The notes beneath the pieces are model-generated. The model had not been told where the DNA came from, searched no databases, and saw only the letters and a list, made by a program, of their open reading frames with translations. From IMG/VR virus record IMGVR_UViG_3300042731_006804, positions 1-64,000 of that record: DNA of 64,000 bases, one strand, 5' to 3'. Source of the stretch: a virus. The position numbers were made by a program, and so were the translations under genes. Shown one piece after another: positions 2,551 through 63,305 of this stretch (position 1 is its first letter; every line of letters starts with the position of its first letter).

Positions 2551-3975
2551 TTAATAATTATTCTTACCTACATTTTTAAATAAGAAATTCTTATTAGGAG
2601 CATAAAGCACAGGAACTCCATAAAGCACTTGGCACCATCGAACCGCTGTAGCAATAGTTGCTAACGGAATTTTAACCATTGGAGCTAATTGCTTGAAAGA
2701 AAGGCTCTCTATATTCTGCTGTAATAACAACGCATTTGTAGTGTCCGGCAAACTAGTATTACTATCAGTAATTGTCTGCTGTCCAGTACCTTGCGAATTA
2801 GCAACCCTTAAGATAAGTTTTTGCGTTCCAGAAGCACCGTTCTTTTTCGTTCGGTAAACTTCATACCACTCCGTAGCGCCCGCCCCCCCCGTAGTACTAG
2901 GGGTAACAGGAATAGGTACATGCTGTGTGGCCGCTATAGAGACCGCAGTAGGTGATCCATACGCAACCGAAATAGACCGACCATATCTATTACACGCAAC
3001 CACAGAATAATAATAATCCCCGGCATCATCTGCCGTAAATAACGGCGCATCTGTTCCAGTAGGAGTAATAGTAGCAATTGCAGGAGTACCAGGAATTTTT
3101 GTGGCGTCTCCAATAGCAGCAGCATTTGGTGTCGAGGTATTACCAGTAAGAAAAGTATTACTTACAAATTGAACGACGCCTGATTCGGAAGTAAACCCAG
3201 TAATGTTATTGCCGATAATACCACTATTATCGGTAAAAGTATTATGGCGCTCTTTTGGGAAAAATGTCTTAGTTAATTCTGACTTAGTCTTATGATTTAA
3301 ATGGAGATGAGTAGGGAACCCATAAGAAGTCCTGACAGTAGACACTGCCTCAGATAAAATATCCTCAGTAAGAGGGGCACCTCTTAAATCTAATACGTGA
3401 TCAGAATCTGCATTGTCCGTAATTAGCTTATTGAAACCATCAAATTGAACAGCAGATAAAGAAGAATCAGCGTAATAAAGAGACTTTTCCAAAATACGAA
3501 GTAAATGCATCGTTCCATGAACTGTTTCATTGGCAATAACATTACCATGAGCAGGCCGAACAAGACTCATTACATGAGTCACTGATCGAGTAGTACCCAA
3601 AAACTTTACCACTGCGTACTTTCGCGCATAAGTAGAATCATCACTTTCAGGAAGAGCACCTTCTGAAATAAACCCAGAATCCTCATTGGATCCATAACTC
3701 GAAATCTGATTGTGCTCCTCAACGGTATTGTATGCAGGGATTTTAGGAATAGCTTTCCAAAAAACAATTTCCTTTGCTGTATAGGTAACCGTTTTTAGGG
3801 TATTCTCTAAAGACTCAACTCGTAAAGGAAAGCCTTCTCCAGCGGCAACAGTAGGAGCCGCAATATCTTGTCCAGCAGTTAAAGCCTTATTTAATTCATC
3901 TACTTCTTGTTGCTGAACACTTCCATATCCGTCAATACCATCATAATCCGAAAAACTAACCATGTTCTCTAACAT
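2551..3975 (-). CDS. major capsid protein with an inserted Fn3-like domain
   Basis: This 474-residue protein matches the usual size and make-up of HK97-fold major capsid proteins (FWKAIPKIPAYNTVEEH near 72-88, GFISEGALPESDD near 101-113). Residues about 295-415 look like a fibronectin-III/Ig-type surface domain (AGDYYYSVVACNRYGRS, then EWYEVYRTKKNG). LNKA at 28-31 matches the candidate protease cleavage motif and would release a 30-residue N-terminal peptide. The ATG at 3975 has AAGGAG upstream. It follows the scaffold and protease genes, as in most tailed phages. Confidence 0.85.
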   Translation of the reverse strand: MLENMVSFSDYDGIDGYGSVQQQEVDELNKALTAGQDIAAPTVAAGEGFPLRVESLENTLKTVTYTAKEIVFWKAIPKIPAYNTVEEHNQISSYGSNEDSGFISEGALPESDDSTYARKYAVVKFLGTTRSVTHVMSLVRPAHGNVIANETVHGTMHLLRILEKSLYYADSSLSAVQFDGFNKLITDNADSDHVLDLRGAPLTEDILSEAVSTVRTSYGFPTHLHLNHKTKSELTKTFFPKERHNTFTDNSGIIGNNITGFTSESGVVQFVSNTFLTGNTSTPNAAAIGDATKIPGTPAIATITPTGTDAPLFTADDAGDYYYSVVACNRYGRSISVAYGSPTAVSIAATQHVPIPVTPSTTGGAGATEWYEVYRTKKNGASGTQKLILRVANSQGTGQQTITDSNTSLPDTTNALLLQQNIESLSFKQLAPMVKIPLATIATAVRWCQVLYGVPVLYAPNKNFLFKNVGKNNY

Positions 3976-4036: not shown

Positions 4037-4858
4037 TTAAGCAGTAGCTCCTTGCCTAGCCTTTAAAGCACTAACTACTTGATTAGGTAATTGATTGCTA
4101 CTTTCCAGTAAAGCAACCGCATGATTTACGCTAACTCCCCCAATATTATCAACTCCTTGCTCTGCAAGATTAAGTAATTGCCCCATCATCTCAGACTTCT
4201 TTAACGTTTGCCCTTCGTTCTTTTGTCCAATAAAAGCCTTATTTAAAGGTTGAACCGATGTAGGCTTTCTAATAGGGGCCTCGCTATAATTGTCCATAGA
4301 TTTTTTTAACTCAGAAATAACGCTCATTGCATCTTTTAACCCAGTAGCAACAGAAACCATACTTTTCGCAAGGGTAATATTAAACGTATGCTGGCGCATA
4401 GCATTGCTATTTAATTCCCCTTCTAACGTACTAAGCGATTTGACCAATCCACTATGTAATTCTGTTAAATAATCAGAAACATCTAATGATTTTTGAATAG
4501 TATCAGATTCTAAGGAATTAAGGACAGAATCTGAAAAATCATCAACTCCTTCCGTATTCGCATTCTCAGAACCACTTAAAGATTTAAATAATTCATTCAT
4601 CTCTTCAGAAGAAAGATCATCCGTCATTGCTTTCTTAAGTAAAACATCTTTTCGAGAATTTGGATCAGACGTATTAACATAATCAGTTAATACATTGATA
4701 GCTTTACTAAGATCATCCTCTGTTAAATCCTGTGATTTCTTAGTACCACAAGCTTTCTCCTCATCTTCCATTTGAGAATCTTCATTCTCTCCCATTTCAT
4801 CCATCTGATCCTTCTTGTTCTTCATCTCGTCATCATTTTGCATCGGCTGTCGTTTCAT
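4037..4858 (-). CDS. probable scaffolding protein
   Basis: A 273-residue, strongly charged and helical protein with a very acidic N-terminus, placed between the prohead protease and the capsid gene, the usual scaffold position. It holds about nine L/I-x-K-(A/S) sequences (for example LSKA 50-53, LNKA 205-208), far more than its neighbours, as expected if the protease cuts the scaffold into pieces. The N-terminus MKRQPMQ is a weak match to the peptide tag on other phage proteins. Assignment rests on position and composition. Confidence 0.65.
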   Translation of the reverse strand: MKRQPMQNDDEMKNKKDQMDEMGENEDSQMEDEEKACGTKKSQDLTEDDLSKAINVLTDYVNTSDPNSRKDVLLKKAMTDDLSSEEMNELFKSLSGSENANTEGVDDFSDSVLNSLESDTIQKSLDVSDYLTELHSGLVKSLSTLEGELNSNAMRQHTFNITLAKSMVSVATGLKDAMSVISELKKSMDNYSEAPIRKPTSVQPLNKAFIGQKNEGQTLKKSEMMGQLLNLAEQGVDNIGGVSVNHAVALLESSNQLPNQVVSALKARQGATA

Positions 4859-4874
4859 AACTAACTCCTTTTAA

Positions 4875-5666
4875 TTAATGCAATTTATTTTGCAATTTTA
4901 AATCTCGAGCCAACGAGATTATTCTCCCTTTTAATTCAGGAGATATATTAGGTAAATGATTAGATAGCCAATCAAATGCTTGACTATCCGTTAAACCCTT
5001 TTTTAAATTCTTTTTCTTTTTCTTTTCTAAAGATTCCTGAACAAGAACCTGTCCGGCACTTTCCCCAGTTCTATCTCCGTCAACAGAATTACCTGGAATA
5101 GGGCTACCCATAGAAAGGGCTTTTGCTAATATATTCAATTGAGTATCTGTATTAACAGGGGCTTTTGTAATTGCTACTTCTCTAACAATTGCCTTTGTAA
5201 CAGTAGACTTATTTAATGGATCTCTTCGTTGAATTTTCCCTTCAACCGAAAAACCCAATCTACGAGGGGTCTTATTTAAAGCGCATGCAAGGTTCCACAA
5301 TTCATCAGCAGGTGGATAACCTTCAAGCAAATACCCCTCAGCCCAATGACAATCTGCTTTTGCAATTTTTCCATCAGGCAATACATCGCCTTTTCGAAAA
5401 CGCTCGGTTAACTCAGGGTACCCTACTAGATTACATGTATGACTCACTTTAGGATTAGAATGATTATCATTAAACCATCCATATTTTACAAATTCAGAAA
5501 AGTCTAAACCATTTTGAATAAGAGTTTCTTCTTGTCTATCTGGAGTTTCTGTAGAAACAACTCCACCTATTCGGCGTTGTTGTCCTTCTGGAGCTGATGC
5601 TTTTGTAAAAAAAGAAGCTTCCCCAACAGAAAGTCTAAAATCATTTGTAGGAATTTCTTGAGGCAT
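4875..5666 (-). CDS. prohead maturation protease
   Basis: A 263-residue protein of the caudoviral prohead serine-protease type. The segment GGVVSTETPDRQEE (about 34-47), FNDNHS with likely catalytic His69, and LGFSVEGKI with likely catalytic Ser140 occur in the family order. After the domain come LNKS, VTKA, ITKA and LAKA (about 151-183), which may be self-cleavage sites, then a basic, helical tail. It would process scaffold, capsid and other head proteins after assembly. The ATG at 5666 follows AAAGGTG. Confidence 0.85.
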   Translation of the reverse strand: MPQEIPTNDFRLSVGEASFFTKASAPEGQQRRIGGVVSTETPDRQEETLIQNGLDFSEFVKYGWFNDNHSNPKVSHTCNLVGYPELTERFRKGDVLPDGKIAKADCHWAEGYLLEGYPPADELWNLACALNKTPRRLGFSVEGKIQRRDPLNKSTVTKAIVREVAITKAPVNTDTQLNILAKALSMGSPIPGNSVDGDRTGESAGQVLVQESLEKKKKKNLKKGLTDSQAFDWLSNHLPNISPELKGRIISLARDLKLQNKLH

Positions 5667-5864: not shown

Positions 5865-6317
5865 CTACTTATTCCAATGCATTCCGTTATCAATAGCATA
5901 TGCGCAAAATTCTAAGTCCTCAGCAACTCCTTCCCAAACAGATGCCCCTTCTATTTCACCGTCTTTTCTCTCTATACGAGCATTTTTTCTATAATCTTTT
6001 GCTCGTTTTCGTAAATAATCCCCTATTTTATACCATTCAGAATGAATTAAGCCAATAGAAGCATGTGAAATAGCTTCTGTTAAGGCTATTTTATTTTCAA
6101 TAATTTTCTTAATCAAGAACACTAATTCTAACCAAATTTCTGAATTCACTGAAGCATTTTCTAATGCTTTTTGCAAATTAGGTAATTGATCTAGCTTTGC
6201 ATACTGCTGAATAGCAATTGCTTCAGCAATAAACCTCTTATCGTGTATTTCTGGATTAACCGTATATTTACAATAGACACAGTCACAGCTATCTGTTTTT
6301 ATCGCTACTCTTTTCAC
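5865..6317 (-). CDS. hypothetical protein, 150 aa, with N-terminal RVAIK tag
   Basis: This protein starts with GTG (GGAGAGA upstream) and begins MKRVAIK, the peptide found at the start of several unrelated proteins in this window. Cys-x-Cys-x2-Cys follows directly (SCDCVYCKY). The rest is helical with a basic stretch (YLRKRAKDYRKNARIERKDG). No family is recognised. It overlaps the upstream gene by 29 bases. Confidence 0.7.
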   Translation of the reverse strand: MKRVAIKTDSCDCVYCKYTVNPEIHDKRFIAEAIAIQQYAKLDQLPNLQKALENASVNSEIWLELVFLIKKIIENKIALTEAISHASIGLIHSEWYKIGDYLRKRAKDYRKNARIERKDGEIEGASVWEGVAEDLEFCAYAIDNGMHWNK

Positions 6318-7794: not shown

Positions 7795-8004
7795 CTATTC
7801 CTTTTCCATTTTCGCGTAAATGATGTCAACTACCTTTACCAAATCCTTTATTTTACGCGGATAAAGAACTTGTATTCGCTCGTAAAGAAGTAGATCACCC
7901 GACGTCTCGTACATCAATTCCCACTTCGTTTGTTGCTCTTCTGGCAATTGCGTAATTTGCCATTTTATATCAAAATAAGGATCTTTAATCGCCACTCGTT
8001 TCAT
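7795..8004 (-). CDS. small protein with N-terminal RVAIK tag
   Basis: A 69-residue protein beginning MKRVAIKDPYFDIK, another carrier of the shared N-terminal peptide. The ATG at 8004 follows AAGGAGGAGTG; the upstream GTG is less likely. The rest is helical (LPEEQQTKWELMYETSGDLL). It resembles the short tail-associated or assembly proteins of no known family. Confidence 0.7.
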   Translation of the reverse strand: MKRVAIKDPYFDIKWQITQLPEEQQTKWELMYETSGDLLLYERIQVLYPRKIKDLVKVVDIIYAKMEKE

Positions 8005-8013
8005 CACTCCTCC

Positions 8014-13911: not shown

Positions 13912-14108
13912 CGCTTAATGACATAACGCTCCTTCCCCCTTATAACTTTCGATAAATCAACAGGAAGTACTACTTTAATAGGCTCGCCACACCAATAACA
14001 TTTAGAAGTGCATATATCCCCGTTCCAAATAATCCTACCCTTTACATGTAATTTAAAACCGTCATCAGTTCTTTGAATTATTTGATTACGGCAATTAGGG
14101 CACTTCAT
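13908..14108 (-). CDS. small zinc-finger protein, 66 aa
   Basis: Two CxxC pairs (MKCPNCRN and KCYWCGEP) indicate a zinc ribbon. A basic tail (VIRGKERYVIKR) may bind nucleic acid. It overlaps the end of the MuF gene by 14 bases, so it is co-translated with the head genes, and it meets the rightward operon tail to tail. Confidence 0.65.
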   Translation of the reverse strand: MKCPNCRNQIIQRTDDGFKLHVKGRIIWNGDICTSKCYWCGEPIKVVLPVDLSKVIRGKERYVIKR

Positions 14109-16479
14109 TTATATTGCCTTTAGTCCATTGTAATCTTCTAGTTACTACAAATCTATTAATACCTTTATTCTTTTTTCGTGCTTCTTTCTTAGATTCTTTT
14201 ACTGTATCAGGAATTACCAATTCTTTAACCGGTATAACGTTTTCACCAAATTGATAATCTTCTATGTCTCCATAGATACCTTTATTATCTTTTTGCTTCT
14301 TACGTTTTTTTAATTCTTCTTTGCCTATATTAAAGATTTCCTTATACCGTATAGTTCCTCCACTACCAGGTTTCTTCACTTCTGTACCATAAAAATAATT
14401 CAATCCTAATCCTGGACCAGGGGATAAATCATAATTAGATTTATAGATATTGCTTTTTAAATCATCCCATAATCTATATAATCTTTTATCAAATTTTTTC
14501 TTATTAGCTTCTGTTAAACTATTCAAAAAAGTTTTATCCCAAAAAGATTTTACTTTACTATTAAAGTACTTAAAATCAGGAGAATTTCCTACTATTCTTT
14601 CAAATATATGATGTTGATTTGTATCTTTAAAATTACGAATAAATCTTTCCAATTCCCCAGCACCTTCATTCCAAAATGCATCAAATTCGGCAGATTGATT
14701 ATAATATTCTTTACTATGCTCAGTTACTATGTTATGAACTTTACCATATCCAGCATTAAGATAATGAGATATTTCGTGAATAATAACTTTACTAGTTATT
14801 CTAGTGTCTAAATAAGTAGTATCATATGGATTCCTTAAATTAGTTAACACTAATACATCTTTCCCATCATTAGTTTTACCAATACCATTGCCTCTAAAAA
14901 CTCCTTTAGGAGTAATCAATATATGTAAATGTGATAAATTTTTATCATTTGTAAATTGATTTGCCTGTATATAAACATTTCCATTTGAATCAAATTGCAA
15001 ATTATCTTTATTATCCTTTACCCAACTAATTAATTCATCATAAAAATTACTAGCTTTATTTCTCATTGATAAATTAGGATCTTTATAAGGTATAGTATGC
15101 TCAGCATTTGCCCATTTACCACCTTTAGGTCCTATGAATAAGGCTTTATTTATTTCCTCTCTGTCTATGCCTACCCCACACCATCTTTTAAAAGCTTCGA
15201 CATCCATAGAACTACAATCATAAATAAAATCATCCGGATTATCGTAATTCATTCTATAGACATTTAATGCATGTTCTTCATTCCTAAAACCAAGCATACA
15301 TTTTTGTTCATCATATAATTCATTATCAGGATTCTTTTGATCAATTATATAAACTACAGGTGAATCTTTAAATGGTCCAACAAATACATCTAACTCTTCT
15401 TCATCCATAGAAGTGGTTCGTTTTACAAAACCATAAGATGCGCCGTACATAATGGTTTCCCCTATTGAACCATCTCCATTAATCCATTTACGCTTATCCC
15501 CTTTTGGAGTTTCGATAGCAATAGGAATTCCTTGAAAAACTATATTAGCCTTAGCCTTTAAGGATTTATAAAAAAGATTTTCTTCAATTAAAGCCTTTTC
15601 TAATTCTTCAGGCTCTTGATAGATTTCCCCCAATTTACCTCCTGGTACTAAATCACCTTCTTCATTAAATCCCCATCCCTTTGGAACACTAATCATGCTG
15701 CATACACAATTAGGATGAATTGGACCAACTACAACTTGCCAATCATTTTGTTTACGTCCTACATTACTCCCATGTTCTTCTAATGTAGATAATTTAAATA
15801 TCCTAGGCTGCCCATCTGGACCAATATGTAAACGAATACAATGTTTACATGCCCCTGGATTAGGTATACGCGCAACATAAACATCTTCTCCATACTTTTT
15901 TCTAAGGTAATCTGCTTGCCCTTGCTGTGTTGAATACATTATCTCAGTTACAGCAATTCGTTTCATATCCCTAGCCCAATCCCCAGTAGACCAACCTAAA
16001 TCACTTCTAAGCTTTTCGATACTCTCTCTTCTTGCAGCATTTAAAGCAGTAAGATTTTTTATCTTATCCTCATACGCAATTCGAAATCTTTGATCTGCTT
16101 CTATCAAAGTTCTTCCCGTATCTTTTTCAATTACATTTCCTAATCCCATACAATATTGTCCCGCATTTACTTGCGCCATACGAACAGCTCTTTGTTGCAT
16201 TTGCGTTAACGGTTGTGGATTTTTTTGAATATAATCTTCAAATCTATTATATGACATCTGTGAAGCTTGAGGACTATTTAATTTACCAAGCACTTGTCCG
16301 TATTCATATATTTTCTTAATAAGGTCCTTTGACTCTTTATTCAATAACCCTTTATCTCGTAATTCATCAATCACTTCATCAGGTAACGCGTCATGACCAA
16401 TTGTATTAGCTATAAATGCATTATGATGTAATTCAATTATATCTTGGATTTCTAATATTTGATCAGGAGTTAACGGCAT
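14095..16479 (-). CDS. MuF polyvalent protein: MuF head domain, pyrophosphatase-like and metallopeptidase domains
   Basis: A 794-residue protein. Residues about 1-280 are a MuF-type head-morphogenesis domain (WARDMKRIAVTEIM, then CKHCIRLHIGPDGQ and HPNCVCSM). Residues about 310-440 match the inorganic-pyrophosphatase-like domain of phage polyvalent proteins (IAIETPKGDKRKW, MYGASYGFVK, ELDVFVGP). An FIGPKGGKWA module follows near 446. The C-terminal part holds a zinc metallopeptidase signature HEISHYL (about 568). Such proteins are thought to be packaged and injected with the DNA. LEKA and INKA sites could let the prohead protease separate the domains. Confidence 0.8.
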   Translation of the reverse strand: MPLTPDQILEIQDIIELHHNAFIANTIGHDALPDEVIDELRDKGLLNKESKDLIKKIYEYGQVLGKLNSPQASQMSYNRFEDYIQKNPQPLTQMQQRAVRMAQVNAGQYCMGLGNVIEKDTGRTLIEADQRFRIAYEDKIKNLTALNAARRESIEKLRSDLGWSTGDWARDMKRIAVTEIMYSTQQGQADYLRKKYGEDVYVARIPNPGACKHCIRLHIGPDGQPRIFKLSTLEEHGSNVGRKQNDWQVVVGPIHPNCVCSMISVPKGWGFNEEGDLVPGGKLGEIYQEPEELEKALIEENLFYKSLKAKANIVFQGIPIAIETPKGDKRKWINGDGSIGETIMYGASYGFVKRTTSMDEEELDVFVGPFKDSPVVYIIDQKNPDNELYDEQKCMLGFRNEEHALNVYRMNYDNPDDFIYDCSSMDVEAFKRWCGVGIDREEINKALFIGPKGGKWANAEHTIPYKDPNLSMRNKASNFYDELISWVKDNKDNLQFDSNGNVYIQANQFTNDKNLSHLHILITPKGVFRGNGIGKTNDGKDVLVLTNLRNPYDTTYLDTRITSKVIIHEISHYLNAGYGKVHNIVTEHSKEYYNQSAEFDAFWNEGAGELERFIRNFKDTNQHHIFERIVGNSPDFKYFNSKVKSFWDKTFLNSLTEANKKKFDKRLYRLWDDLKSNIYKSNYDLSPGPGLGLNYFYGTEVKKPGSGGTIRYKEIFNIGKEELKKRKKQKDNKGIYGDIEDYQFGENVIPVKELVIPDTVKESKKEARKKNKGINRFVVTRRLQWTKGNINEVP

Positions 16480-18379: not shown

Positions 18380-18597
18380 TACCGCGCTCTCCATGTCCTA
18401 GGTTGTTCTCCAAGTAATTCAACAACTTCATCCATGTAAAATCCCCCTCTTTCAGCAATCCTTTCCGCAGACTGGGTATTATTCCATTTTTTATGATATG
18501 CTTCCCATACCTTTAAATGTTCTCCCCAAGAAATAAACCCATCAGGTATACGTAGTAATTTACTGCCAATAACCCTTACTATTCGTTCTTCATCCAT
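18379..18597 (-). CDS. hypothetical protein, 72 aa
   Basis: The start at 18597 (MDEERIVRVIGSKLL) is chosen because GAGG lies upstream and the ATG overlaps the TGA of the large polyvalent gene. The product has a basic C-terminus. No family recognised. Confidence 0.6.
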   Translation of the reverse strand: MDEERIVRVIGSKLLRIPDGFISWGEHLKVWEAYHKKWNNTQSAERIAERGGFYMDEVVELLGEQPRTWRAR

Positions 18598-21500
18598 CAA
18601 CCTACCTCTTTCCAAAGTTTTTCAGAAGCACCTACATTCTTTGCCCATTGCTCAAATACCATTGGATGGATATAACTAGCCTTTGCAATACTAGGAGTAT
18701 TGTTCAATATTGTAGCTACTTTTTTACTTGTTTCCAACAACGCTTTAGCTAATAATCGTTTATCCTTTTTACTATCCCCGGTTAATGGAGGAGGAGTGTC
18801 AACTTCTTTTAATAATCTTTCAGCTGATTCCGTAGCCTTAATTGTTCTAAGGTCTTTTACTTTCATTCCTTTAGGAAGTATATTTTTTCCAATATCTAAA
18901 GCATTAGGATTAAATATATTACTATCTTCAGTAGCATTCCTTACATAATACTCTAAGGCTTTTAATGTTACAGGATTCTGAACCACTGTAACATTCTTCT
19001 TACCTTCTTTACCAATAAAGTTTAAAACAGCCATTTTATTATTTAAAGCAATGTGATCCTTTTTTAAAGTACTTATACCGTAGTGACCATGCTTTTTAAC
19101 ACTTTCCATACTACCTGGACGTAATCCTGTTTCTGCAATAATAGCTAATATAGTATGGCCTTGATGATCAATGCTACCAGGTTTTTCCTTAATTAATTTT
19201 TCATTCAATGTATTCACAATTTCTTTTTTCTTACTTCTAAATTTATTAATTCTATCCCATTTTTTCTTAGCATTTATTTCATGAAATTTTGGAGTATACC
19301 CACTTTGAACTTTCCCCTTAGTGTCTTTCCAAGTAATAATTGCTTTACTATTTATATCACCAGAAAAATCTACTCTTACATCTGAAGCCGGAATAGTGGC
19401 TTGTGGTAACTTATCCACTTTTAATTCTTTTAATTTAGCTTGTACTTTACCAGGCAATTGAGAACCCGGAGGTTCCCTCTTAATAGGTTTATTTTCTACT
19501 TCATCTTTATAAGGTATAGTATGCTCAGCATTTGCCCATTTACCACCTTTAGGTCCTATGAATAAGGCTTTACGTAAATCAGATTCATTGATCGTAAAAC
19601 CTTTTCTTATTTTAACTATTCCTGGATCTCCTTCTAGTATTGTAGCGTTGATACCTTGCTCACGTAAATTATTCATAGCTATTTTAGCATCATCTACGTC
19701 TATAGAAAAATTAGTTTGGTAGACATCATGGATATCGTCAGAAGCAACTTTTTTAAGTTTTATATTCTTAGCGGAAACATAAGCTAAACTAGATTCCGCT
19801 TCTTTTACATTTTGCGGTTTTGATGGCCTTCCCCTACCTTGCTTAACAGGTTCCTCTTTTATAGCTTCTCGTTTAAATGTAAGAGGTGGCTCTTTAATAG
19901 CCACTCGAGTCATTTTGTTCTTAGAACCAGGAGGTCTCCCTCGTTTCTTCTTTTCAGGCTCTTGAATAACCATTGAAGGAATAGCAACTCTTTTAATGTT
20001 TTTTGATCCAGGAGGTCTTCCACGTTTCTTTTTTTCAGGTTCTTGTTCAATTACTTCCTTAATTGGTTCCCTTATAACAAAAGCTAGTTTTTGTTCTTCT
20101 TGTTTAGGAACCTCTATGGGAATAACAGGAACATCGGGTTTATCTTCTTTAATAGGTAATTCCTTATTTTCTTCTATAGGCGTTTTACCTCCATGAATTT
20201 TATTCAATATATCACTGACGGTTAAGGGCTTATTCATCCATGCAATTTCTTCCTGCGTCAGCTTCTTTCCCTGATTTACTTTTTTAGATAATTCATATTT
20301 CCTTTTAATTATCTCCGTAACTGAAGAATCAAATAAATTATTAGAAGCGGTAACCCAATAAACATTTACGTTATTCTTTTGTCCAATTCTGTGTGCTCTA
20401 TCCTCTGCTTGGCGCAAATCAGCAGCAGTCCAAGGTAAATCATTAAAAATAACTTTATCAGCAGCAGTTAAAGTAGCTCCTACAGCCATTGATTGGCGAG
20501 TAGTTATAAATACTCGTTTAGGAGAAACAAAATCACCGTTACCATCTGTTTTTTGAAACTCTTCCTTTACTGCTTCCCTTTTATCATCACTCATTTGTCC
20601 ATGATGCAATAAGGAAATATTACCTAATTCTTCATGAATCTTTTTAGCTGCATCAACTGAATCAGTAAATACTATTATTTTTGAATCAGATGAATCTAAT
20701 ATCTCTTTAGCCAAATCAATAGTAGCAGGAACCTTTCCGATCGCTACAGCAGCTTTAATTTTAGCAATTTCACCAATATCTTTATTTGCACCATAATCGG
20801 GTAAATTAGGTATGTCTTGTTGAATAATAGAAGTAACTTTTTCAGGTAAATCTTTTAAAACCTCTTCCTTACTCCTCGCAATATAGAAATCCTTCATATC
20901 ACGCCAAAGTCCGCCAATAGTAGCAAATTTTATTTGATTTTTAGACGTAAATTTACCAGGTGCAACAACTTCCAACTGAGTAAATAATTCTTCTTTTTTA
21001 TTTTTAACCGCCGTTCCAGACAATAGAATATGATGCTTTACTAATGCCGATACCTTTTGAATTGCTTTTGTCTGTTTAGCTTTAGGATTCTTCATCCTAT
21101 GCGATTCATCAACCACTACTGTATCAAAACCAGCATCCTTTAAATAAGGATAAAACTTATTCAAAGATTCATAATTAACAGTTACAAGGTTCTTATCTTT
21201 AAGGTTTGGAACTCTATTATTTCTTATATCAGAAGATACTAATTCAGTTCCTTTAAACTGTCCTGGAAAAAACTTATCCGCTTCTTGTAGCCAAGTACGC
21301 CTTACTACTTTCGGAACAACTAAAATTGTTTTCTTATTTCCTTTAGCTAACCAAGCCAAAGTTTCAAGCGTCTTTCCAAGACCCATAGAATCCCCAATCA
21401 AAGCATTTCCATTTGTTTTATCTAAAAAATGAACTGCTTCATTTTGATAAGGAAATAATGAATATTTACTGTCTAATAATTTCTGTACTTCAGGAATTGG

Positions 21501-23162
21501 CTTTTGTAATTCAGCTTGGTATCTCGCTTTTTCATTTTGTGCTTCTTTTAAGCCTTCTTCATCTATATATAACTTATAATTAGGCAATTGCTTCTTTATC
21601 TGTTGCAATGCTTCTTCTACTAAATTCAGTTCATGCGTTTCTCTAGCCCAATTATTGTCTTTATTTGCATAAAAAATACCAGACAATCCACCAGTTTTAT
21701 TGGAAAATAAATCATTAAACTCTGAAGAATAGGTAGACCAAAAAGCAAATTTATCTTTACCTATTTTCTTAAGAACAATTGCATCTTTAATTCTTCTATC
21801 TTTAATGCTTTGCAAAGCTTCATCTACAGTAAGGTCCTTTTCATCTTTTTCAGATACTTTTTGTTTTCGTTCCCCCTTAATTGGATGAACTTTTATACCT
21901 ATTTCCCCCATATCCTTCCTATAAGATTCAAAATCAAAATCATCTAAATATTGTTCTTTAATAAAGTTCTCGCCGTTACTAAACCATACGTTGTATTTTT
22001 TATTAATGTCTCGAAACTTGCTAAAAGTTTCTCTATCAACCCTTCCATCTACTGGAAGAGTGAGGCTCCCCCAAGTTTTATTGTAATAAGGTTTAATATC
22101 CGCTTTATAACCCTTACCTTCTCTTGTATCTGCTAATCCTAATTTATGGTATTCTTCAATGCTATAGGCACCAACTATTTGACGTTTATATTTTTGAAGT
22201 AATTGCCGCTTTGCATTTACACCAGTTACAGATCTCCATCTGTCCATATCTACATAACTAAATCCAGTGTCGTCTTTTTCACGAGGATTAATTGCTTGAT
22301 GACTATATAAAGCTTCACCTATTCTATCTAAAATTTGTTCAGCTTCTTCGTCACTATACCGTTCTTTAGTTTCTGAATAACTATGTACTTCGTCTTTCCA
22401 AGGTATAGTGTGTTCTGGATCAGCCCATTTACCTCCACGTGGACCGATAAATGGGCCTTTTTGTGCTTTATTTAAAGCTTCATTGTAGTCTTCAATATAG
22501 GAATCTGTATCTATATCATAATGAAAATATGATATACCTTCATCTTCCCCTTTATTTAATCCATCTACTCTAATACCCGTATTGGGTTTAATTTGAATAG
22601 CTCGGTCATCCCAAAGTTCAGCCATATGCAGATCTTTTTCGTATACTACCGGTAATTCTTCTCCAATATATTTTTTGCACCATTTCTTTATAGCGGTAAT
22701 AGATGCTCTAAAATCACTAGAATTTGGATTTGCTCTAGCAGTCATAATTTTTACATTTTTATTATTGGCAATCCATTCCTTAACTCTATCAACCATTTTA
22801 GGAATTGGCTTACCAATAGAAGCAGAGCCTTTATATTCATGGTATTCCGCTAATGTCCCATCTAAATCAACGCCAATCCAAGAAGGATTGGAACCAAGAC
22901 TCTTATTTAATTTTCCCTTATCTAATACTTTACTTATATCCGCAAGCATCATATTAGTTTGGTCTTTATAACCTATTTCCCATTGCTTTAATACTTCTAA
23001 TAGAACTGGATCAGTAAACAATTTATCTTTATCATCTATAGCTTTAATTAAACGATTCTTTAAATCAAAATCTACTTCCCCAATGTAATCAGCAATAGAT
23101 TTTACTAAAGAAACTCTTTTAGAAAAAAGTTCTTCCTTATTTGCTTCTATTTGTATACGCAT
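18597..23162 (-). CDS. giant polyvalent protein: HAD phosphatase, SNF2 helicase, AT-hooks, topoisomerase IB
   Basis: A 1521-residue protein. Near 96-190 is a HAD-type domain (GVDLDGT, IMTARAN, ELWDDRA). An FIGPRGGKWA module lies near 237-255. The SNF2 helicase spans about 570-960: Walker A GDSMGLGKT near 590, DESH near 684, LLSGTAV, and RAHRIGQ near 924. Three AT-hook-like GRP motifs (about 1050, 1074, 1112) alternate with KRVAIP, TRVAIK and KREAIK peptides. A second GGKWA module is near 1200. The C-terminus is a topoisomerase IB domain (TGLRPGSME near 1348, GKEGKKN, KDLRTIKA, and SYIHP with the likely active Tyr near 1496). It probably travels in the virion and remodels DNA on entry. Confidence 0.85.
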   Translation of the reverse strand: MRIQIEANKEELFSKRVSLVKSIADYIGEVDFDLKNRLIKAIDDKDKLFTDPVLLEVLKQWEIGYKDQTNMMLADISKVLDKGKLNKSLGSNPSWIGVDLDGTLAEYHEYKGSASIGKPIPKMVDRVKEWIANNKNVKIMTARANPNSSDFRASITAIKKWCKKYIGEELPVVYEKDLHMAELWDDRAIQIKPNTGIRVDGLNKGEDEGISYFHYDIDTDSYIEDYNEALNKAQKGPFIGPRGGKWADPEHTIPWKDEVHSYSETKERYSDEEAEQILDRIGEALYSHQAINPREKDDTGFSYVDMDRWRSVTGVNAKRQLLQKYKRQIVGAYSIEEYHKLGLADTREGKGYKADIKPYYNKTWGSLTLPVDGRVDRETFSKFRDINKKYNVWFSNGENFIKEQYLDDFDFESYRKDMGEIGIKVHPIKGERKQKVSEKDEKDLTVDEALQSIKDRRIKDAIVLKKIGKDKFAFWSTYSSEFNDLFSNKTGGLSGIFYANKDNNWARETHELNLVEEALQQIKKQLPNYKLYIDEEGLKEAQNEKARYQAELQKPIPEVQKLLDSKYSLFPYQNEAVHFLDKTNGNALIGDSMGLGKTLETLAWLAKGNKKTILVVPKVVRRTWLQEADKFFPGQFKGTELVSSDIRNNRVPNLKDKNLVTVNYESLNKFYPYLKDAGFDTVVVDESHRMKNPKAKQTKAIQKVSALVKHHILLSGTAVKNKKEELFTQLEVVAPGKFTSKNQIKFATIGGLWRDMKDFYIARSKEEVLKDLPEKVTSIIQQDIPNLPDYGANKDIGEIAKIKAAVAIGKVPATIDLAKEILDSSDSKIIVFTDSVDAAKKIHEELGNISLLHHGQMSDDKREAVKEEFQKTDGNGDFVSPKRVFITTRQSMAVGATLTAADKVIFNDLPWTAADLRQAEDRAHRIGQKNNVNVYWVTASNNLFDSSVTEIIKRKYELSKKVNQGKKLTQEEIAWMNKPLTVSDILNKIHGGKTPIEENKELPIKEDKPDVPVIPIEVPKQEEQKLAFVIREPIKEVIEQEPEKKKRGRPPGSKNIKRVAIPSMVIQEPEKKKRGRPPGSKNKMTRVAIKEPPLTFKREAIKEEPVKQGRGRPSKPQNVKEAESSLAYVSAKNIKLKKVASDDIHDVYQTNFSIDVDDAKIAMNNLREQGINATILEGDPGIVKIRKGFTINESDLRKALFIGPKGGKWANAEHTIPYKDEVENKPIKREPPGSQLPGKVQAKLKELKVDKLPQATIPASDVRVDFSGDINSKAIITWKDTKGKVQSGYTPKFHEINAKKKWDRINKFRSKKKEIVNTLNEKLIKEKPGSIDHQGHTILAIIAETGLRPGSMESVKKHGHYGISTLKKDHIALNNKMAVLNFIGKEGKKNVTVVQNPVTLKALEYYVRNATEDSNIFNPNALDIGKNILPKGMKVKDLRTIKATESAERLLKEVDTPPPLTGDSKKDKRLLAKALLETSKKVATILNNTPSIAKASYIHPMVFEQWAKNVGASEKLWKEVG

Positions 23163-23634: not shown

Positions 23635-24015
23635 TTATTCCCCCCAAGCACAATAAAAACCAGATAAAGCTACAGTTAATGCCTTAATACTAAAATTACT
23701 AATCAAAGCGTTCATAAAAAAACTAGCTTTTGGGTAAGTAGTGTCTGTATGGCGTATCAATAAAATAGGAACATTACTGCTATTTATAGTTAGTTCACAA
23801 TCATTATTAACTACTAATAGAATACCTTTAATTGTAGCAATATCTCCAAAAGAAAGAACTTCTGTTCCTCCTATATCAATATTAATAGTACCGGAACAAT
23901 ATTTATCATATTCAGAAACAGTAATCTTAGCTAGGTCATTACTTAAACCAAAATATAAATCACTTAAATCTGATTCTTTTATAATTCTAGCGTTTACTAT
24001 ATGTTCCAATTTCAT
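23635..24015 (-). CDS. hypothetical protein, 126 aa
   Basis: A beta-rich 126-residue protein (MKLEHIVNARIIKESDLSDLYF) between the polyvalent protein and the portal. A beta-barrel or virion-surface role is possible. No family recognised. Confidence 0.65.
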   Translation of the reverse strand: MKLEHIVNARIIKESDLSDLYFGLSNDLAKITVSEYDKYCSGTINIDIGGTEVLSFGDIATIKGILLVVNNDCELTINSSNVPILLIRHTDTTYPKASFFMNALISNFSIKALTVALSGFYCAWGE

Positions 24016-24423: not shown

Positions 24424-26025
24424 TTACAAAACTACATCCAATATTAAACTTTTTTTCACTTCATCATCTTCTTCATTTTGATCAACTAAATCATCCTCAG
24501 AATATTTAGACAATAAAGATCTTATATCTTGTTCCCCATTACCCCCTTTCTCATTATCATCTTGTGTCATTCCATTTTCATTTTGGTCACCTTCTTCTTG
24601 TTGCTGCATTGCTTGTGCTTGTTGTTTATTCTGGATATAAACCTGATTGAGTATAATGTCTCCTTGGTCATCCGGTAATGGGGGTCTATCTTCTTCAGCC
24701 CTTAATTCATTTACAGTAATATAGGTTTGAACACGTTTCTGATTTCTTGTAGCTACTGCATCTTTTGTTTCTGCATCAAGCCCCATAAACTCAAAAGTAA
24801 AATCAGAATTAATAGGCTCTACTAAATGAATAGCAATTAATTCACCTATGTCATTCAATAATGGACGTAAACCGCGCTCTTTACTTTCAATAATCTTTTC
24901 AGCAGATGAACTTTCAACCAAAGCTCTCGATTGACCGGTATTGCCATAATTGAAATTAATCTCTGCTGGATCAGTTGCATATACAGCAGAAGCTTCTTTA
25001 ATAAGAAAATCCATCCATGCAGAAAACTCCATATCCCTATGTGTCTGCTGCATATTAATCCATTCAATTCCATCGGTATTAGTTATAGGAGTTTTCCATG
25101 CATTATTCACTGAAGAAAGTAAGTTATACCAATGCCTTTTAAATTCAGCAAATTGCTTAGCATTCGCTGTTCCTTTAAAATTCAAAATACCTTTGGCACT
25201 AGAACCTTGTGTAAAAAACTTCTGATTATATTGATGGCCGTACAATAACGAAGTAATTGTAGACACCAATAATTCTAATTCACTTACACCATATCCTTGA
25301 AGCCTGATATTAGTATTTGGGTGTCTTACACCAAATACCATTTCATATTGGGTATATTCATTGATCACTACTCCATCGTATACTTGTACATATCTAATCT
25401 CTTTAGTTTTGTCTTCATCATTGAATACGTTCCCATTATCTGCAATACGAATAGTAGCTGCGTCTGTTGCGTACCATTCAGCAGGTAAACCTTTTCTATT
25501 GGGGACTATTTCAAAACACATTTGATCATATATAAGAGTGTCAAATACTAATTTTTTTAGAAATGTTTTAAAACTATCCCTCCCTCTAGGATTATTAGTC
25601 ACTCCTGTATTTAATAAAATATTATTCATTTGTGCAATGAATTTCTGTTCTTGTTTTGTGGTATTCTTATCCTTGTCCTTTAATACCACTCTAAACCCCA
25701 ATGAGAATTTATCTTGTTGTGGAGTTGCAAAAGCCGCTACTTGATTCATTCTAAGAAATACAATTGCTTGAACAATTGGAAGTTTACAAAAAATATTCCA
25801 CAAAGTAATATATGTAATAGAGGAAGGCCGATCCTTATATCCAAATTGTTCTACTATTGAATAAGGATCAAAGAAAATAGACTTAGGATCATTATCTGCC
25901 TTTTGCACTGGATTAGATAATTGCTGTGCTTGAACATTGATTGCTTGCCGTGACTGCTCAAGTTTAGCTTTTATCAAATCCGTAGCAATAGGCATCATTT
26001 CTTGAAAAGTACTAATAATGCCCAT
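24424..26025 (-). CDS. portal protein, HK97-like
   Basis: A portal protein of about 533 residues. The start at ATG 26025 has AAAGGA nine bases upstream. Typical parts are the N-terminal wing (SITYITLWNIFCKLPIVQAIVFLRMNQVA), the core (LIYDQMCFEIVPNRKG..WYATDAATIR), LGYGVSELE-like QGYGVSELELL, and the stem and crown (MDFLIKEASAVYATDPAEINF). It forms the ring through which DNA enters and leaves. VQKA near 42-45 fits the candidate cleavage motif. The C-terminus is acidic and disordered. Confidence 0.85.
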   Translation of the reverse strand: MGIISTFQEMMPIATDLIKAKLEQSRQAINVQAQQLSNPVQKADNDPKSIFFDPYSIVEQFGYKDRPSSITYITLWNIFCKLPIVQAIVFLRMNQVAAFATPQQDKFSLGFRVVLKDKDKNTTKQEQKFIAQMNNILLNTGVTNNPRGRDSFKTFLKKLVFDTLIYDQMCFEIVPNRKGLPAEWYATDAATIRIADNGNVFNDEDKTKEIRYVQVYDGVVINEYTQYEMVFGVRHPNTNIRLQGYGVSELELLVSTITSLLYGHQYNQKFFTQGSSAKGILNFKGTANAKQFAEFKRHWYNLLSSVNNAWKTPITNTDGIEWINMQQTHRDMEFSAWMDFLIKEASAVYATDPAEINFNYGNTGQSRALVESSSAEKIIESKERGLRPLLNDIGELIAIHLVEPINSDFTFEFMGLDAETKDAVATRNQKRVQTYITVNELRAEEDRPPLPDDQGDIILNQVYIQNKQQAQAMQQQEEGDQNENGMTQDDNEKGGNGEQDIRSLLSKYSEDDLVDQNEEDDEVKKSLILDVVL

Positions 26026-26043
26026 AATCAAAAATCCTTTATA

Positions 26044-28344
26044 TTACATACGGCCGCAATTAGGACAAACTGTTATTGCTTTACTAAAAGTATTACTGCA
26101 ATGTCTACACTTATTAACAGTACTTAAAGGAATACCAGATAAAGGACGATTCATTAAATGGGCTTTGTAAAAAGATTCGTCTTGCATAGAACGAACAGCC
26201 ATTTCATCAGATGTCATTCGTACATTCTCAATTGACTTCTGCACAGGCTCATCTGGTTCAATGTAAACCATATCATTTTTCATTAATTGAGTTTTTCGTA
26301 AAGCAACTTCTCTAGCCATATAGTCATGCGCCTGAGTAGAAATGTTAAGGCTTTTTCTTGCAGTGTTCTCAATAGGCTTCTTATGATCTTTCATATTTTT
26401 CTCGTCTACTTCATCATCTTCAGATAACTTCTTTACAGACGGCTTTGCTACACCTCTATCAAGGGTAGCGCTACCATTACCAGGAATACCAGAAGATTTT
26501 CCTTTACCATCTAATGATTGATCTCCTTGTTCTTTACCTTTCCCAATAACAGGTAAAGACTCATCCTCAATTGTTGATTTCAAGAAAGTCTCTAAGATTT
26601 CAGTTTCCCTCATTCCTTTATTTAAACTTTTAACAAAATCACTCCATGAATCTGAAATAGGTTTATGGGTAACAGCGTCATGCTTTACGTCTCTTAATAA
26701 ATCCCCTTCTTTAAATGACCAATATTCTAAAGTAACATTTTTATCTCTACCTGGACTACTATGCTTAAATACTCCGCCAAGTTTATGTAAATCATCCATA
26801 GAATTTAATTTATTACGATTTAGTTTATGTAATAAATTTCTAATGGGTTTATAAGCATCTTCATAAATATATCGATAACCCCCTCCCGGTTTAGGTATTC
26901 GTTGTTTGTATTTACCACCTATAGGATTACCTTTTTCTAAATCAATTTCTTCATTTCCTAGTGATTTATTATACGTAGACGAATATTTCTGTTTTAAATA
27001 TGTTAAAGCCGTCTGCTTATTTTCCGAATTCAAATCTTTACCAGAATTTTTAACAGCCATTCCAGCAAGTTTGTTAAAAGCTTTATTCCTATCGTACGTC
27101 CCTAATTTTCGTAATTGCACAAGCCATTTCTTTCCGTCAGCTGACCCTAATGCCCTGTCAATATAACTAGTAATACCTTTTCTATCTTTCTTCCCACCAA
27201 TTTCATATTTACCATTTTCATAAAAATAAACATAACCTCCTCCCTTTTTAGGAACTTTTCTAATATACTTTCCGCCTCGGTCTGCTTTAATTAATTCATC
27301 ATCCGTAATACCTATACAAAACATTGCTTTTTCCATTTCCTTACCTCCTAAATATTTTCTAGCCCTATTCTGTAAGGCTACTTTTTGTTGTTCCGATAAA
27401 CCACACTTAGACTGAGGAATGCGGGCAATTGCATTCCGTGTATGTGCTAAATCAATTTTACCGTCCATTCCTCTATAAGGAAAATGACGCAATGAACGAG
27501 GTATTGTCTTACCACTTTCATCTTTCTTTCCCCCTGATTCAATGTAAAGAAAAGCACTATCCGGTAAATCATTCATATGCGCATTTGACCAAACTGCCTT
27601 TTGTAAATTATTATGAAACATATATTTACCAATTGCTTTATTAAAATTTTTAGGAGAAATCACCATAGTTATTTTAGACCCATTTTTATTTAATCCATAT
27701 AATCCATTACTAATTAAATTATTCCAAGAAATATTATCATATTCCAGTTTATAATTAGAGATTAAAGAATTTGCCACATTAATAAAATCTTTATTACCAG
27801 AACTTTGTATAGAATCATAAGACATTCCTGTAATTTTTTTCCATATAGATAACGATACTTTAGAATTTAGTTCCCTATATCCTTTATCATCAAAATATTT
27901 CAACAAAGTGTCCGTTTGCGAACCACTTAAATCTTTAAGAGATTTTTTAACCCAAACCTCTTTTATAGAACCAAGATGACTTTGTTTGGGAACCTTTTGA
28001 TTAAATCCTAAATAACTATCACTAATTGCATTAATGGGGTTACCTCTGTCATCTAATACAAACCTAATATTATATTTCTGGGCAATGTCGATAGGGTCAA
28101 AATATTTATTATCTCTGGCATAGTACCTATCATCATCAGTAGTTTCAACATAAGCGTATTTTCCATCCCATTTAGATAAACTAAATCCCTTTTTATCCTT
28201 AATGGTTGTATCATTAGGCAATTTGTCTAATATAATTTTAGTAGAAATACTTTCATTACCTTCTTTCCAAGGTATAGTGTGTTCTGGATCAGCCCATTTA
28301 CCTCCACGTGGACCGATAAATGGGCCTTTTTGTGCTTTATTCAT
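26044..28344 (-). CDS. head-linked multidomain protein with GGKW/GGKY modules and zinc ribbon
   Basis: A 766-residue protein beginning MNKAQKGPFIGPRGGKWA, nearly identical to a segment inside the giant polyvalent protein. Residues about 250-335 (LPDSAFLYIESGGKKD, PRSLRHFPYR, ARIPQSKCGLS) match a small domain often linked to phage head maturation proteins (DUF6582-like). GGKYIRKVPKKGGGY (about 357-371) and GGKYKQRIPKPGGGY (about 476-490) are linker modules. The C-terminus is a zinc ribbon (CRHC...CPNC). Several M/L-x-KA sites lie between the parts, so it may be cut during maturation. Confidence 0.7.
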   Translation of the reverse strand: MNKAQKGPFIGPRGGKWADPEHTIPWKEGNESISTKIILDKLPNDTTIKDKKGFSLSKWDGKYAYVETTDDDRYYARDNKYFDPIDIAQKYNIRFVLDDRGNPINAISDSYLGFNQKVPKQSHLGSIKEVWVKKSLKDLSGSQTDTLLKYFDDKGYRELNSKVSLSIWKKITGMSYDSIQSSGNKDFINVANSLISNYKLEYDNISWNNLISNGLYGLNKNGSKITMVISPKNFNKAIGKYMFHNNLQKAVWSNAHMNDLPDSAFLYIESGGKKDESGKTIPRSLRHFPYRGMDGKIDLAHTRNAIARIPQSKCGLSEQQKVALQNRARKYLGGKEMEKAMFCIGITDDELIKADRGGKYIRKVPKKGGGYVYFYENGKYEIGGKKDRKGITSYIDRALGSADGKKWLVQLRKLGTYDRNKAFNKLAGMAVKNSGKDLNSENKQTALTYLKQKYSSTYNKSLGNEEIDLEKGNPIGGKYKQRIPKPGGGYRYIYEDAYKPIRNLLHKLNRNKLNSMDDLHKLGGVFKHSSPGRDKNVTLEYWSFKEGDLLRDVKHDAVTHKPISDSWSDFVKSLNKGMRETEILETFLKSTIEDESLPVIGKGKEQGDQSLDGKGKSSGIPGNGSATLDRGVAKPSVKKLSEDDEVDEKNMKDHKKPIENTARKSLNISTQAHDYMAREVALRKTQLMKNDMVYIEPDEPVQKSIENVRMTSDEMAVRSMQDESFYKAHLMNRPLSGIPLSTVNKCRHCSNTFSKAITVCPNCGRM

Positions 28345-28742: not shown

Positions 28743-29435
28743 TTATCCCTCACTTTCTATCCAGTAAAATTTACCTTTACTGATTTTCAAATTTCCTTTC
28801 TTTTGTAACTCCTTCATCACACTTTCTATCTTATCCAAACCATGTTTTTTTACAAGGTTTTTAAATACTTCAGGATTTTGCACACCATTACTCAAAATAT
28901 TTTTTATTTTATTTCCTAAATATCCTGAAACCGTATCTGGACCACCTAAATGTGCCCCTTTACTTCGCTCATATGTTTCTTGATTATAATAATAATTATA
29001 ACCATTTCCACTTTTCTTGGGTACCCTTCTATAGTAAGAACCTCCTCGAGGAATTGCTTTTCGTAACGTAAAAATAGGTATACTTTTTTTCATAGTTCGA
29101 AAATATTTGATAGCACGTACACCAATTATGTTGCGTAAAAAAGGATCTAAATTATCAGAAATAGCCTTTAGAACTACTGATTTTCTAAATTCTAACTCAT
29201 TTTTCTGGCCAGTAATCTGGGACTGAAGGAACGTTATCCACTCCTTTTCTTGAGAAATAGGAAACCCAAGCCCCTCTACTACCTCTTTGGCAGTAGACAC
29301 AGGAGACTGTGTCCATTGATTAAATTTTTCAAAATCCGCTAATCTTTGCGGACCATAGCAAATAGGGTCTAATCTTTTCGGAACTTGCCCCGGCCAAGTT
29401 TGTTGCCTAGAAAAAATATGCGTTACAGGAAGCAT
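28743..29435 (-). CDS. head-linked protein with GGSY module and winged-helix-like C-terminus
   Basis: A 230-residue protein. LRKA at 124-127 is followed by GGSYYRRVPKKSGNGYNYYY (131-150), the same type of module seen in the 766-residue head protein. The last 60 residues (FKNLVKKHGLDKIESVMKELQKKGNL...GKFYWIE) look like a winged helix. AAGGAGG precedes the ATG. Virion association is inferred from the shared module and position. Confidence 0.65.
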   Translation of the reverse strand: MLPVTHIFSRQQTWPGQVPKRLDPICYGPQRLADFEKFNQWTQSPVSTAKEVVEGLGFPISQEKEWITFLQSQITGQKNELEFRKSVVLKAISDNLDPFLRNIIGVRAIKYFRTMKKSIPIFTLRKAIPRGGSYYRRVPKKSGNGYNYYYNQETYERSKGAHLGGPDTVSGYLGNKIKNILSNGVQNPEVFKNLVKKHGLDKIESVMKELQKKGNLKISKGKFYWIESEG

Positions 29436-46432: not shown

Positions 46433-46753
46433 TTATTTTTTTCCTTTTCTACTCTCCCCTAATCTTCGACCTCGTTCCTTCAACGAGGCTATTTGCTCCT
46501 CAGTCATCTCTCGCTTACAATCCTCCCACGTAACTTTGCCTTTATGTTTAGGATTAAATTGACGCCACCAAAAATTAGGCTCCAATTTTCGGTAAGGCTG
46601 ATACTGATAAAACGGACATTTTCTTGACCCACAATCTACCTTTCCGTCCGTCCAATGTCCCATACATTCCCAACACAAGGCTTCTCCGCATTCTTTCCTC
46701 GAAGGAGGTGTTTCGTAAATTACCTCTACTGATTTAATTGGTGTCCGTTTCAT
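46433..46753 (-). CDS. Cys-rich protein with N-terminal RTPIK tag, 106 aa
   Basis: It begins MKRTPIKSVEV, the shared peptide, then has seven Cys in CGEALCWECMGHWTDGKVDC and CPFYQYQPY, suggesting a zinc cluster. The C-terminus is basic (LKERGRRLGESRKGKK). The tag is followed by an unrelated fold compared with its other carriers. Confidence 0.65.
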   Translation of the reverse strand: MKRTPIKSVEVIYETPPSRKECGEALCWECMGHWTDGKVDCGSRKCPFYQYQPYRKLEPNFWWRQFNPKHKGKVTWEDCKREMTEEQIASLKERGRRLGESRKGKK

Positions 46754-46767
46754 ACTGTTTATCCTTT

Positions 46768-47034
46768 CTATTTTATAGGAATTCTTCTAATAGATTTCCT
46801 AATCATTTCTATTGGCCTACTAAAATTCCATCTATAACAAAGCCATTCATCAAACAAATTATTCTGATCAACGGTCCATCGACCATTTTGTACTTGTCCA
46901 GTTTGAGCGCACCATACAATGCGCTCATCCTTTATCCACCGATTATAAGACTCATTATATAACTGTAAAATTAATTCAGGCGCTAAATTAACCAATTTTG
47001 CATATAAGACTAATCGAATATGGTATTCAGTCAT
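46768..47034 (-). CDS. hypothetical protein ending in RRIPIK, 88 aa
   Basis: A helical, W/Y-rich protein whose last residues are IRKSIRRIPIK, so the shared peptide sits at its C-terminus. Its ATG overlaps the upstream stop. Function unknown. Confidence 0.6.
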   Translation of the reverse strand: MTEYHIRLVLYAKLVNLAPELILQLYNESYNRWIKDERIVWCAQTGQVQNGRWTVDQNNLFDEWLCYRWNFSRPIEMIRKSIRRIPIK

Positions 47035-47539
47035 GACAACTCACATCCGAACAAAATTCTATTTTGTCCGCTTCAGTAAAAGTATTTCCGGTATTAATTG
47101 CATCCATAACCGCTCCAGGAGATACTATGTCATCCATACCAATATAATGGCCTAATTCATGCAATACCGTAAGTGTAAATAATTCATCCGATAATAAATA
47201 TCTAAATAGCCATACATCCCCATTTTGGTATGCGTGACCTAATAAACCCGCCCATTCATCCATATGTGGATCGTCGTAAAAACATACAACAAAATCCCTT
47301 CCCCATTCTGGATCAGACCCAACAGTAAGCGCTTTTTTATGATCTACTTTATCAGTACCCTCTATACTGATAAAGACTTTTCCGCTTAATTTTTTTGTCC
47401 ATGAGTTCAAGTAATTAATAGATTGCTTAATAACTATTTGATCTGCATCAGAGCATGTATCATCGATCCACAATTCATAAGGCGTTGCTTCGCAACCTAC
47501 GCAATAACACTCTAATAGTATAAGAATCCCAATTTTCAT
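47027..47539 (-). CDS. metzincin-type zinc protease lipoprotein
   Basis: The start at 47539 (AAGGGA upstream) gives a signal peptide ending CVGC, a lipobox with Cys16. HELGHYIGMDD (127-137) is the HExxHxxGxxD zinc site, with Asp as third ligand as in snapalysin-type proteases, and GAVMDA (about 142-147) supplies the Met-turn. The protein is 170 residues, shorter than matrixins. It would be anchored in the outer membrane or periplasm and may cut surface proteins. Confidence 0.8.
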   Translation of the reverse strand: MKIGILILLECYCVGCEATPYELWIDDTCSDADQIVIKQSINYLNSWTKKLSGKVFISIEGTDKVDHKKALTVGSDPEWGRDFVVCFYDDPHMDEWAGLLGHAYQNGDVWLFRYLLSDELFTLTVLHELGHYIGMDDIVSPGAVMDAINTGNTFTEADKIEFCSDVSCHD

Positions 47540-47550
47540 TTTAGTATCCC

Positions 47551-49519: not shown

Positions 49520-49689
49520 TTATTCCGCCGTTTTCTAAAAATGAATAATTGACGATCTTCTTCAATACAATTAATAACCTTTCTCCTATTATGGTCACAA
49601 CACAACACTTCCTTATCATCCTTTATAAACTTATACCTACATAAACCATCTAATTCCCGTTTTTTACAATCGCATTTCTCATCAAACAT
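49516..49689 (-). CDS. small Cys-rich protein, 57 aa
   Basis: A frame of 57 residues beginning MFDEKCDCKKRELDG with CC and further Cys, ending in a basic tail. Excellent AGGAGG before the ATG and TAATG overlap with the terminase stop strongly support it. It probably binds zinc. Confidence 0.75.
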   Translation of the reverse strand: MFDEKCDCKKRELDGLCRYKFIKDDKEVLCCDHNRRKVINCIEEDRQLFIFRKRRNK

Positions 49690-63295: not shown

Positions 63296-63305
63296 TTTTT
63301 TCTCC

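Follow-up and report, generated by a model that had tools for sequence, protein, structure and literature searches.

A tag-bearing SNF2 and topoisomerase IB protein of uncultured SPO1-like phages as a putative head polyprotein

Among the closest described systems is DarB, an SNF2-type polyvalent protein of the phage P1 head which carries a 30-aa N-terminal packaging signal (PMC9024508, PMC5512222). In DarB, as in the internal proteins of phage T4, an N-terminal segment takes the cargo into the prohead, and in T4 this segment is removed by the prohead protease. Head proteins of SPN3US and phiKZ, which bear long N-terminal propeptides with several protease motifs, are also processed by a prohead protease (PMC10052503).

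The protein analysed here, P0001, is encoded by ORF 18597..23162 of a 64,000-nucleotide stretch of DNA (the window) belonging to a 103,118-base IMG/VR virus record, and its source is an uncultured relative of phage SPO1. The gene, its parts and the head genes given below all lie on the minus strand; the ORF has an ATG start and encodes 1521 aa with no internal stops. Like P1 DarB and the polyvalent proteins surveyed by Iyer et al. 2017 (PMC5512222), P0001 is a giant multidomain protein with an SNF2-type ATPase, encoded among the virion genes of a portal-terminase phage. Polyvalent proteins combine at least two unrelated enzymatic domains in one polypeptide, and P0001 has SNF2, type IB topoisomerase (TopIB) and HAD domains; their known domain network is represented by SNF2 in P0001 itself and by ddrB-ParB, LPD1, ART-PolyVal and InPase in its sister proteins. 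P0001 differs from them in having a type IB topoisomerase, which is absent from the main text of PMC5512222, and, between modules, a recurring tag at which processing in trans is predicted, with no embedded peptidase. The adenine methyltransferase expected of a DarB-like methylase-helicase is not part of P0001, Pfam giving no such domain N-terminal to the SNF2 module. In the literature searched we found neither a topoisomerase in a polyvalent protein nor tag-marked modular processing, and no phage paper in the open-access literature searched had SNF2 and topoisomerase IB together.

An earlier note, made from the sequence alone, had described a single 1521-residue chain of HAD, SNF2, AT-hooks and topoisomerase IB with full motifs in helicase and topoisomerase, and this description is confirmed by Pfam, PHROG and motif positions. 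The SNF2/SWI2 ATPase (aa 565-990, 20193..21470) matches SNF2-rel_dom at 572-781 (E 5.5e-24) and Helicase_C at 818-927 (4e-14), and its helicase motifs are complete, with GDSMGLGKT at 590-598, DESH at 685-688, LLSGTA at 713-718 and QAEDRAHRIGQ at 918-928. N-terminal to it lies an accessory region (aa 256-564, 21471..22397) that is conserved together with the SNF2 module and shows no known fold (AF2 pLDDT 77, no convincing PDB match). HARP domains of the SMARCAL1 type were considered for the stretch before the SNF2 core and dropped, the model (pLDDT 77, pTM 0.40) having no PDB match at E<0.001. The HAD-like phosphatase module (aa 86-205, 22548..22907) was assigned from PHROG 1238/415 matches of aa 86-169 to HAD-type phosphatases (2.5e-8, 1.7e-5) and from its motifs, DLDGT (aa 99-103), TAR and DD, which supply the DxD, T and acidic motif IV of the family. 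In the Pfam scan of P0001 no HAD model reached E 1, and the HAD query of the profile search matched only the three orthologs, P0001 included. In one ortholog (L005:9986-14806) HAD motif I reads DLDRT, not DLDGT.

Between helicase and topoisomerase, where the earlier note had placed AT-hooks, there are indeed three within aa 1044-1115, two KKKRGRPPGSKN and one GRGRPSK, at aa 1044, 1071 and 1109. They lie in a linker (19788..20192) which also holds four motifs of the [KR]R-x-[AP]-I-K type and whose length varies among orthologs. The topoisomerase itself (aa 1222-1521, 18600..19499; Topoisom_I at 1293-1515, 3e-18) was aligned to the variola and Deinococcus enzymes, and R1348, K1385, R1439, N1488 and Y1497 are kept, N1488 being an Asn at the poxvirus His position. 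Its AF2 model (pLDDT 74, pTM 0.64) has the TopIB fold, and Foldseek pairs it with the variola, Deinococcus and human enzymes (prob 1.00, best E 2e-10), so that the structure prediction proposed earlier bears out this part of the chain. Fold and catalytic R/K/R/Y are common to P0001 and to the poxvirus and Deinococcus enzymes (2h7f, 2f4q), and Deinococcus 2f4q likewise has Asn at the poxvirus His position; relaxation activity is predicted. Unlike those enzymes, the P0001 TopIB is part of a phage head-cluster polyprotein, in which a tag precedes it.

A search for this architecture in other phages recovered the whole domain set in two independent orthologs, L004 (1747 aa) and L005 (1607 aa, on a 102.6-kb contig). 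Every P0001 module is kept in both, and the length differences sit in the linker around the AT-hooks. Against these orthologs leader, HAD, SNF2, linker and TopIB have dN/dS values of 0.03-0.19; over the 32-aa tag 2 segment the ratio is 0.51 against L005 and 0.14 against L004, values that are noisy given the few sites. To judge from these ratios, which are well below 1, all main modules are under purifying selection. Given two orthologs with every module and low dN/dS, P0001 is neither a chance ORF nor the product of a frameshift or of an assembly join; indeed, neither the frameshift nor the loss of catalytic residues that the earlier note named as grounds for doubt was found in the intact ORF, its orthologs or the TopIB alignment.

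P0001 lies in a head gene cluster with the portal (24424..26031; Phage_portal 1.2e-24), a conserved 126-aa protein (23635..24015) that precedes the leader gene in relatives, a head maturation protease (4875..5666; phrog_1028, E 1.9e-30), the scaffold (4037..4858) and an SPO1-like major capsid protein (MCP, 2551..3975). Two sister tag polyproteins are encoded in the same cluster, a MuF head protein with InPase, tag and HEISH metallopeptidase (14095..16479) and a 766-aa tag protein directly upstream of the portal (26044..28344). The first 85 residues of P0001 (22908..23162) form a conserved head-protein domain, the leader, which a profile search detected in more than 20 tag-phage proteins, many of them bearing it at the N-terminus. 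In four relatives (G003, G004, G009, G017) the leader stands alone as a gene of 106-151 aa between portal and MuF, and the gene order does not change among relatives, portal and 126-aa protein being followed by the leader gene, alone or extended by modules, and then by MuF, protease, scaffold and capsid. Since the leader is elsewhere a separate head gene in a fixed slot, P0001 can be read as that head gene with enzymes appended. In contrast to the T4 and DarB targeting sequences, the leader is ~85 aa long and in other phages makes up a head gene of its own, and its targeting is predicted; it is a candidate capsid-targeting propeptide. Gene position, the conserved head leader and the canonical polyvalent domains of the sister proteins fit both the kinship with phage polyvalent proteins and the virion location that had been suspected earlier, from which we infer that P0001 would be a virion protein.

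The tag is a 24-aa peptide with the consensus K-[AGS]..GP-[YF]-IGPRGGKWADPxHTIPW. FIGPRGGKWADPEHTIPW or a close variant occurs twice in P0001, as tag 1 (PFIGPRGGKWADPEHTIPWKD, aa 237-257, 22392..22454) and tag 2 (LFIGPKGGKWANAEHTIPYKD, aa 1200-1220, 19503..19565), and once in each sister polyprotein. Searched as a DNA pattern for GPRGGKWADPxH, with the upstream residues left unspecified, it was found in 40 stretches of viral contigs (IMG/VR) and in one match among 84,980 bacterial and archaeal genomes, a Myxococcales MAG. In that MAG (L051:1964-7987) the portal, the 126-aa protein, a leader-tag-tag protein and MuF-InPase follow in the order of the window, which may hint at a host or may reflect a phage contig binned with a bacterium. 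With a tag profile 80 unique copies were collected from giant ORFs, which often carry two or three; the 69 seed tags were picked with no upstream requirement, while the profile that collected the last few tags did include upstream columns. No tblastn match was obtained in isolated phages, even at E 10, a search in which BLAST is weak for such short queries; no cultured member of the tag-phage group was found in the collections searched, nor the tag sequence in the papers searched, nor virion proteomics of any tag phage. Among 26 tag records the phrog_1028 protease is present in 16 and the SPO1-like capsid protein phrog_752 in 15, including the large records. The tag is thus, on its distribution, a signal that recurs throughout a group of uncultured SPO1-like phages (dozens). 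The earlier note had taken the architecture with tag repeats as unrecognised, and there is no prior report in the literature searched, but the repeats are not private to P0001 and recur across the group.

The modules joined to the tags vary. Pfam detected SNF2, zeta toxin, ddrB-ParB, LPD1, PAP2, ART-PolyVal, PAPS reductase and InPase in tag ORFs, a domain set that appears largely that of polyvalent proteins, and SNF2 is present in 14 of 27 tag records. The P0001 segment that starts at tag 1 and runs to aa ~990 is 52-56% identical to the proteins of L013 and L014, in which the HAD before it and the TopIB after it are replaced. In the viral contig scans the TopIB-tag fusion was seen only in the lineage of the window, L004 and L005; weak Topoisom_I matches in three other records (G005, G015, G022) fall in MuF proteins below the Pfam cut-off and were read as spurious. 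Intein or homing endonuclease insertions occur in the tag polyproteins of L027 and L116 (in SNF2) and of L096 (in MuF, by eye). A second tag-like repeat, approximately GG-[KS]-Y-x-x-[RK]-x-P-K-x-G-x-G-Y-x-[YF]-x-[YF], is present in three copies in 26044-28344 and 28743-29435, each preceded by L-x-K-[AG].

A [hydrophobic]-x-K-[AGS] motif lies at most 14 residues upstream of 74 of the 80 unique tags (93%), compared with 11% of 14-mers drawn at random from these proteins; since many of the tags share common descent, the 74 do not count as independent trials, and six tags have no canonical site. Of the 74 motifs, 52 begin with L, and the spacing to the tag ranges from 4 to 9 residues, which makes the motif an element separate from the tag. 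In 15 scaffolds of tag phages the motif occurs 173 times for 20.5 expected (8.4x), the scaffold of the window having 9 [LIVM]xK[AGS] motifs for 1.4 expected, and in 16 proteases 66 times for 17.9 expected (3.7x). Capsid protein, portal, terminase and the 126-aa protein show little or no enrichment (0.7-1.8x). Whole polyproteins hold 200 sites for 159 expected, with little excess outside the tag windows, and P0001 overall holds 12 for 8.2 expected (p 0.11). One copy in P0001 (IAK↓A; arrows mark cut positions) lies at the TopIB catalytic tyrosine and, given this position inside the fold, accessibility must matter and the motif alone is insufficient.

The same motif class is seen at the capsid protein. 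The readable MCP N-arms of tag phages and of SPO1L5 have LNKAL.AG in common, that of the window being DELNK↓ALTAG. For the MCP of one staphylococcal relative two PDB forms exist, the full-length ...EDVVKSFQTG (5lii) and a chain starting with SFQTG (9row); the capsid cut site was taken from these two forms, and in the alignment the LNKA of the window matches the staphylococcal VVKS. The motif in scaffold and tags, together with this alignment of LNK with VVK↓S, suggests that the protease of the tag-phage group cuts after K. In P0001 the sites predicted in this class (LNK↓A/S) are KLNK↓S directly before HAD (aa 84-88, 22899..22913; kept in 3/3 orthologs), ALNK↓A before tag 1 (aa 229-233, 22464..22478), whose LNK↓A is also a motif of the window MCP N-arm, and DLRK↓A before tag 2 (aa 1195-1199, 19566..19580; DL[RQY]K↓A in orthologs), and all three sites are kept in the orthologs. 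In SPN3US and phiKZ, cleavage follows E, whereas in P0001 it is predicted after K, at points that separate one enzyme of the chain from the next. Tags and LxK↓A/S sites placed exactly between modules suggest that the chain is cut. Of the earlier statement that helicase and topoisomerase share a single chain, the one ORF stands, but with sites between the modules they are probably not used as one chain. With modest confidence, and on the strength of sequence and predicted structure, we therefore regard P0001 as a probable head polyprotein whose enzymes would be released by the prohead protease and ejected along with the DNA.

P0001 could instead be packaged and injected whole in the manner of DarB, the tags being uncut docking or linker peptides between domains. 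Indeed, P1 DarB was recovered as a 251-kDa head protein (PMC9024508), the virion RNA polymerase of N4 is packaged without processing (PMC5512222), and the AT-hooks could keep SNF2 and TopIB on the same DNA. However, K-[AGS] stands before 93% of unique tags, in the motif class of capsid protein and scaffold, and we consider an uncut chain unlikely.

Less likely still, P0001 would be an intracellular replication or repair enzyme outside the virion, with tags serving as recombination-prone linkers for module exchange. Consistent with this, the PRGGKWADPEHTIPW tags of P0001 and its neighbour (22393-22472 and 28262-28341) share 80 identical nt, and the PKGGKWANAEHTIPY tags of the MuF gene and P0001 (15080-15148 and 19504-19572) at least 69; such identity between neighbouring genes suggests that copying, gene conversion or module transfer took place recently. 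The [KR]RxxIK motifs of the linker are also common to RuvC, terminase, SSB-like and primase-like ORFs of this phage. Against it, the P0001 gene occupies a head slot and begins with the conserved head leader, and between phages only 35% of shared tag residues have the same codon; codons diverge while the peptide stays, so that selection acts on the peptide. That the cut is made by the tag-phage metallopeptidase (HEISH domain, MuF protein 14095-16479) and not by the head protease seems very improbable, for although HExxH occurs in the MuF sister protein and many tag ORFs, and Iyer et al. proposed MPTase-domain autoproteolysis for other polyvalent proteins (PMC5512222), P0001 itself and the tag ORFs of several tag-phage stretches are without HExxH, and a site motif shared with scaffold and capsid protein, which are head-protease substrates, fits the head protease better.

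In its wider form, [KR]R-[VTIS]-[AP]-I-[KPRGV], the linker motif has 17 copies for 0.8 expected, 7 of them terminal for 0.1 expected, at N- and C-termini and in linkers of RuvC, terminase, SSB-like, primase-like and Dam-like proteins. The carriers are 5865-6317, 7795-8007, 46433-46753, 49689-51617, 54069-54743, 55935-56582, 61937-63328, L049:3988-4965, L049:4952-5698 and aa 1030-1102 of P0001, whose AT-hook linker has four copies. It is perhaps a docking peptide for a replication hub, for which the clamp-like ORF 52462-53478 (by eye only) is a candidate. Elsewhere in the window, the small ORF 47027-47584 has a HELGHYIG motif, a likely signal peptide and a weak matrixin-like match.

For P0001 as a head polyprotein, we infer the following course of packaging, cleavage and ejection, and the following role for each enzyme. 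The leader would bring the chain into the prohead, where the head protease would trim the capsid protein after LNK, degrade the scaffold and cut P0001 after K87, K232 and K1198. The products would be a discarded leader, HAD (~16 kDa), tag-SNF2-AT-hook (~109 kDa) and tag-TopIB (~36 kDa), and the freed enzymes would remain in the head and exit with the DNA, ejection being deduced from the P1 Dar proteins (PMC9024508, PMC12810830) and the polyvalent survey (PMC5512222). The SNF2 motor could then translocate on the incoming duplex and clear or block bound host proteins, as proposed for P1 DarB, while TopIB would relax the torsion made by SNF2 with no need of ATP or host enzymes, and HAD might trim a phosphate on a nucleotide or a DNA end. 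We hypothesise, in other words, that an SNF2 translocase and an ATP-independent swivel work as a pair on the incoming duplex, and the reshaping of the incoming genome that the earlier note had imagined is plausible.

More tentatively, and as a possibility we hold somewhat short of probable, the 24-aa tag may be a portable 'cut-and-load' signal in the whole uncultured SPO1-like group: any enzyme behind leader and tag would enter the head, be freed by the head protease and be received by the next host, and the tag DNA would also provide homology for module swaps. If this reading is true, the SNF2-TopIB pair would be a virion-delivered DNA remodelling kit, a topoisomerase would join the enzymes that a phage brings along with its genome, and the tag would give a sequence handle for head-delivered enzymes in metagenomes. 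Furthermore, whether polyvalent proteins are cut and injected could be reduced to a simple co-expression test, and these phages would offer a case of a polyprotein that a protease matures at sites flagged by a modular signal.
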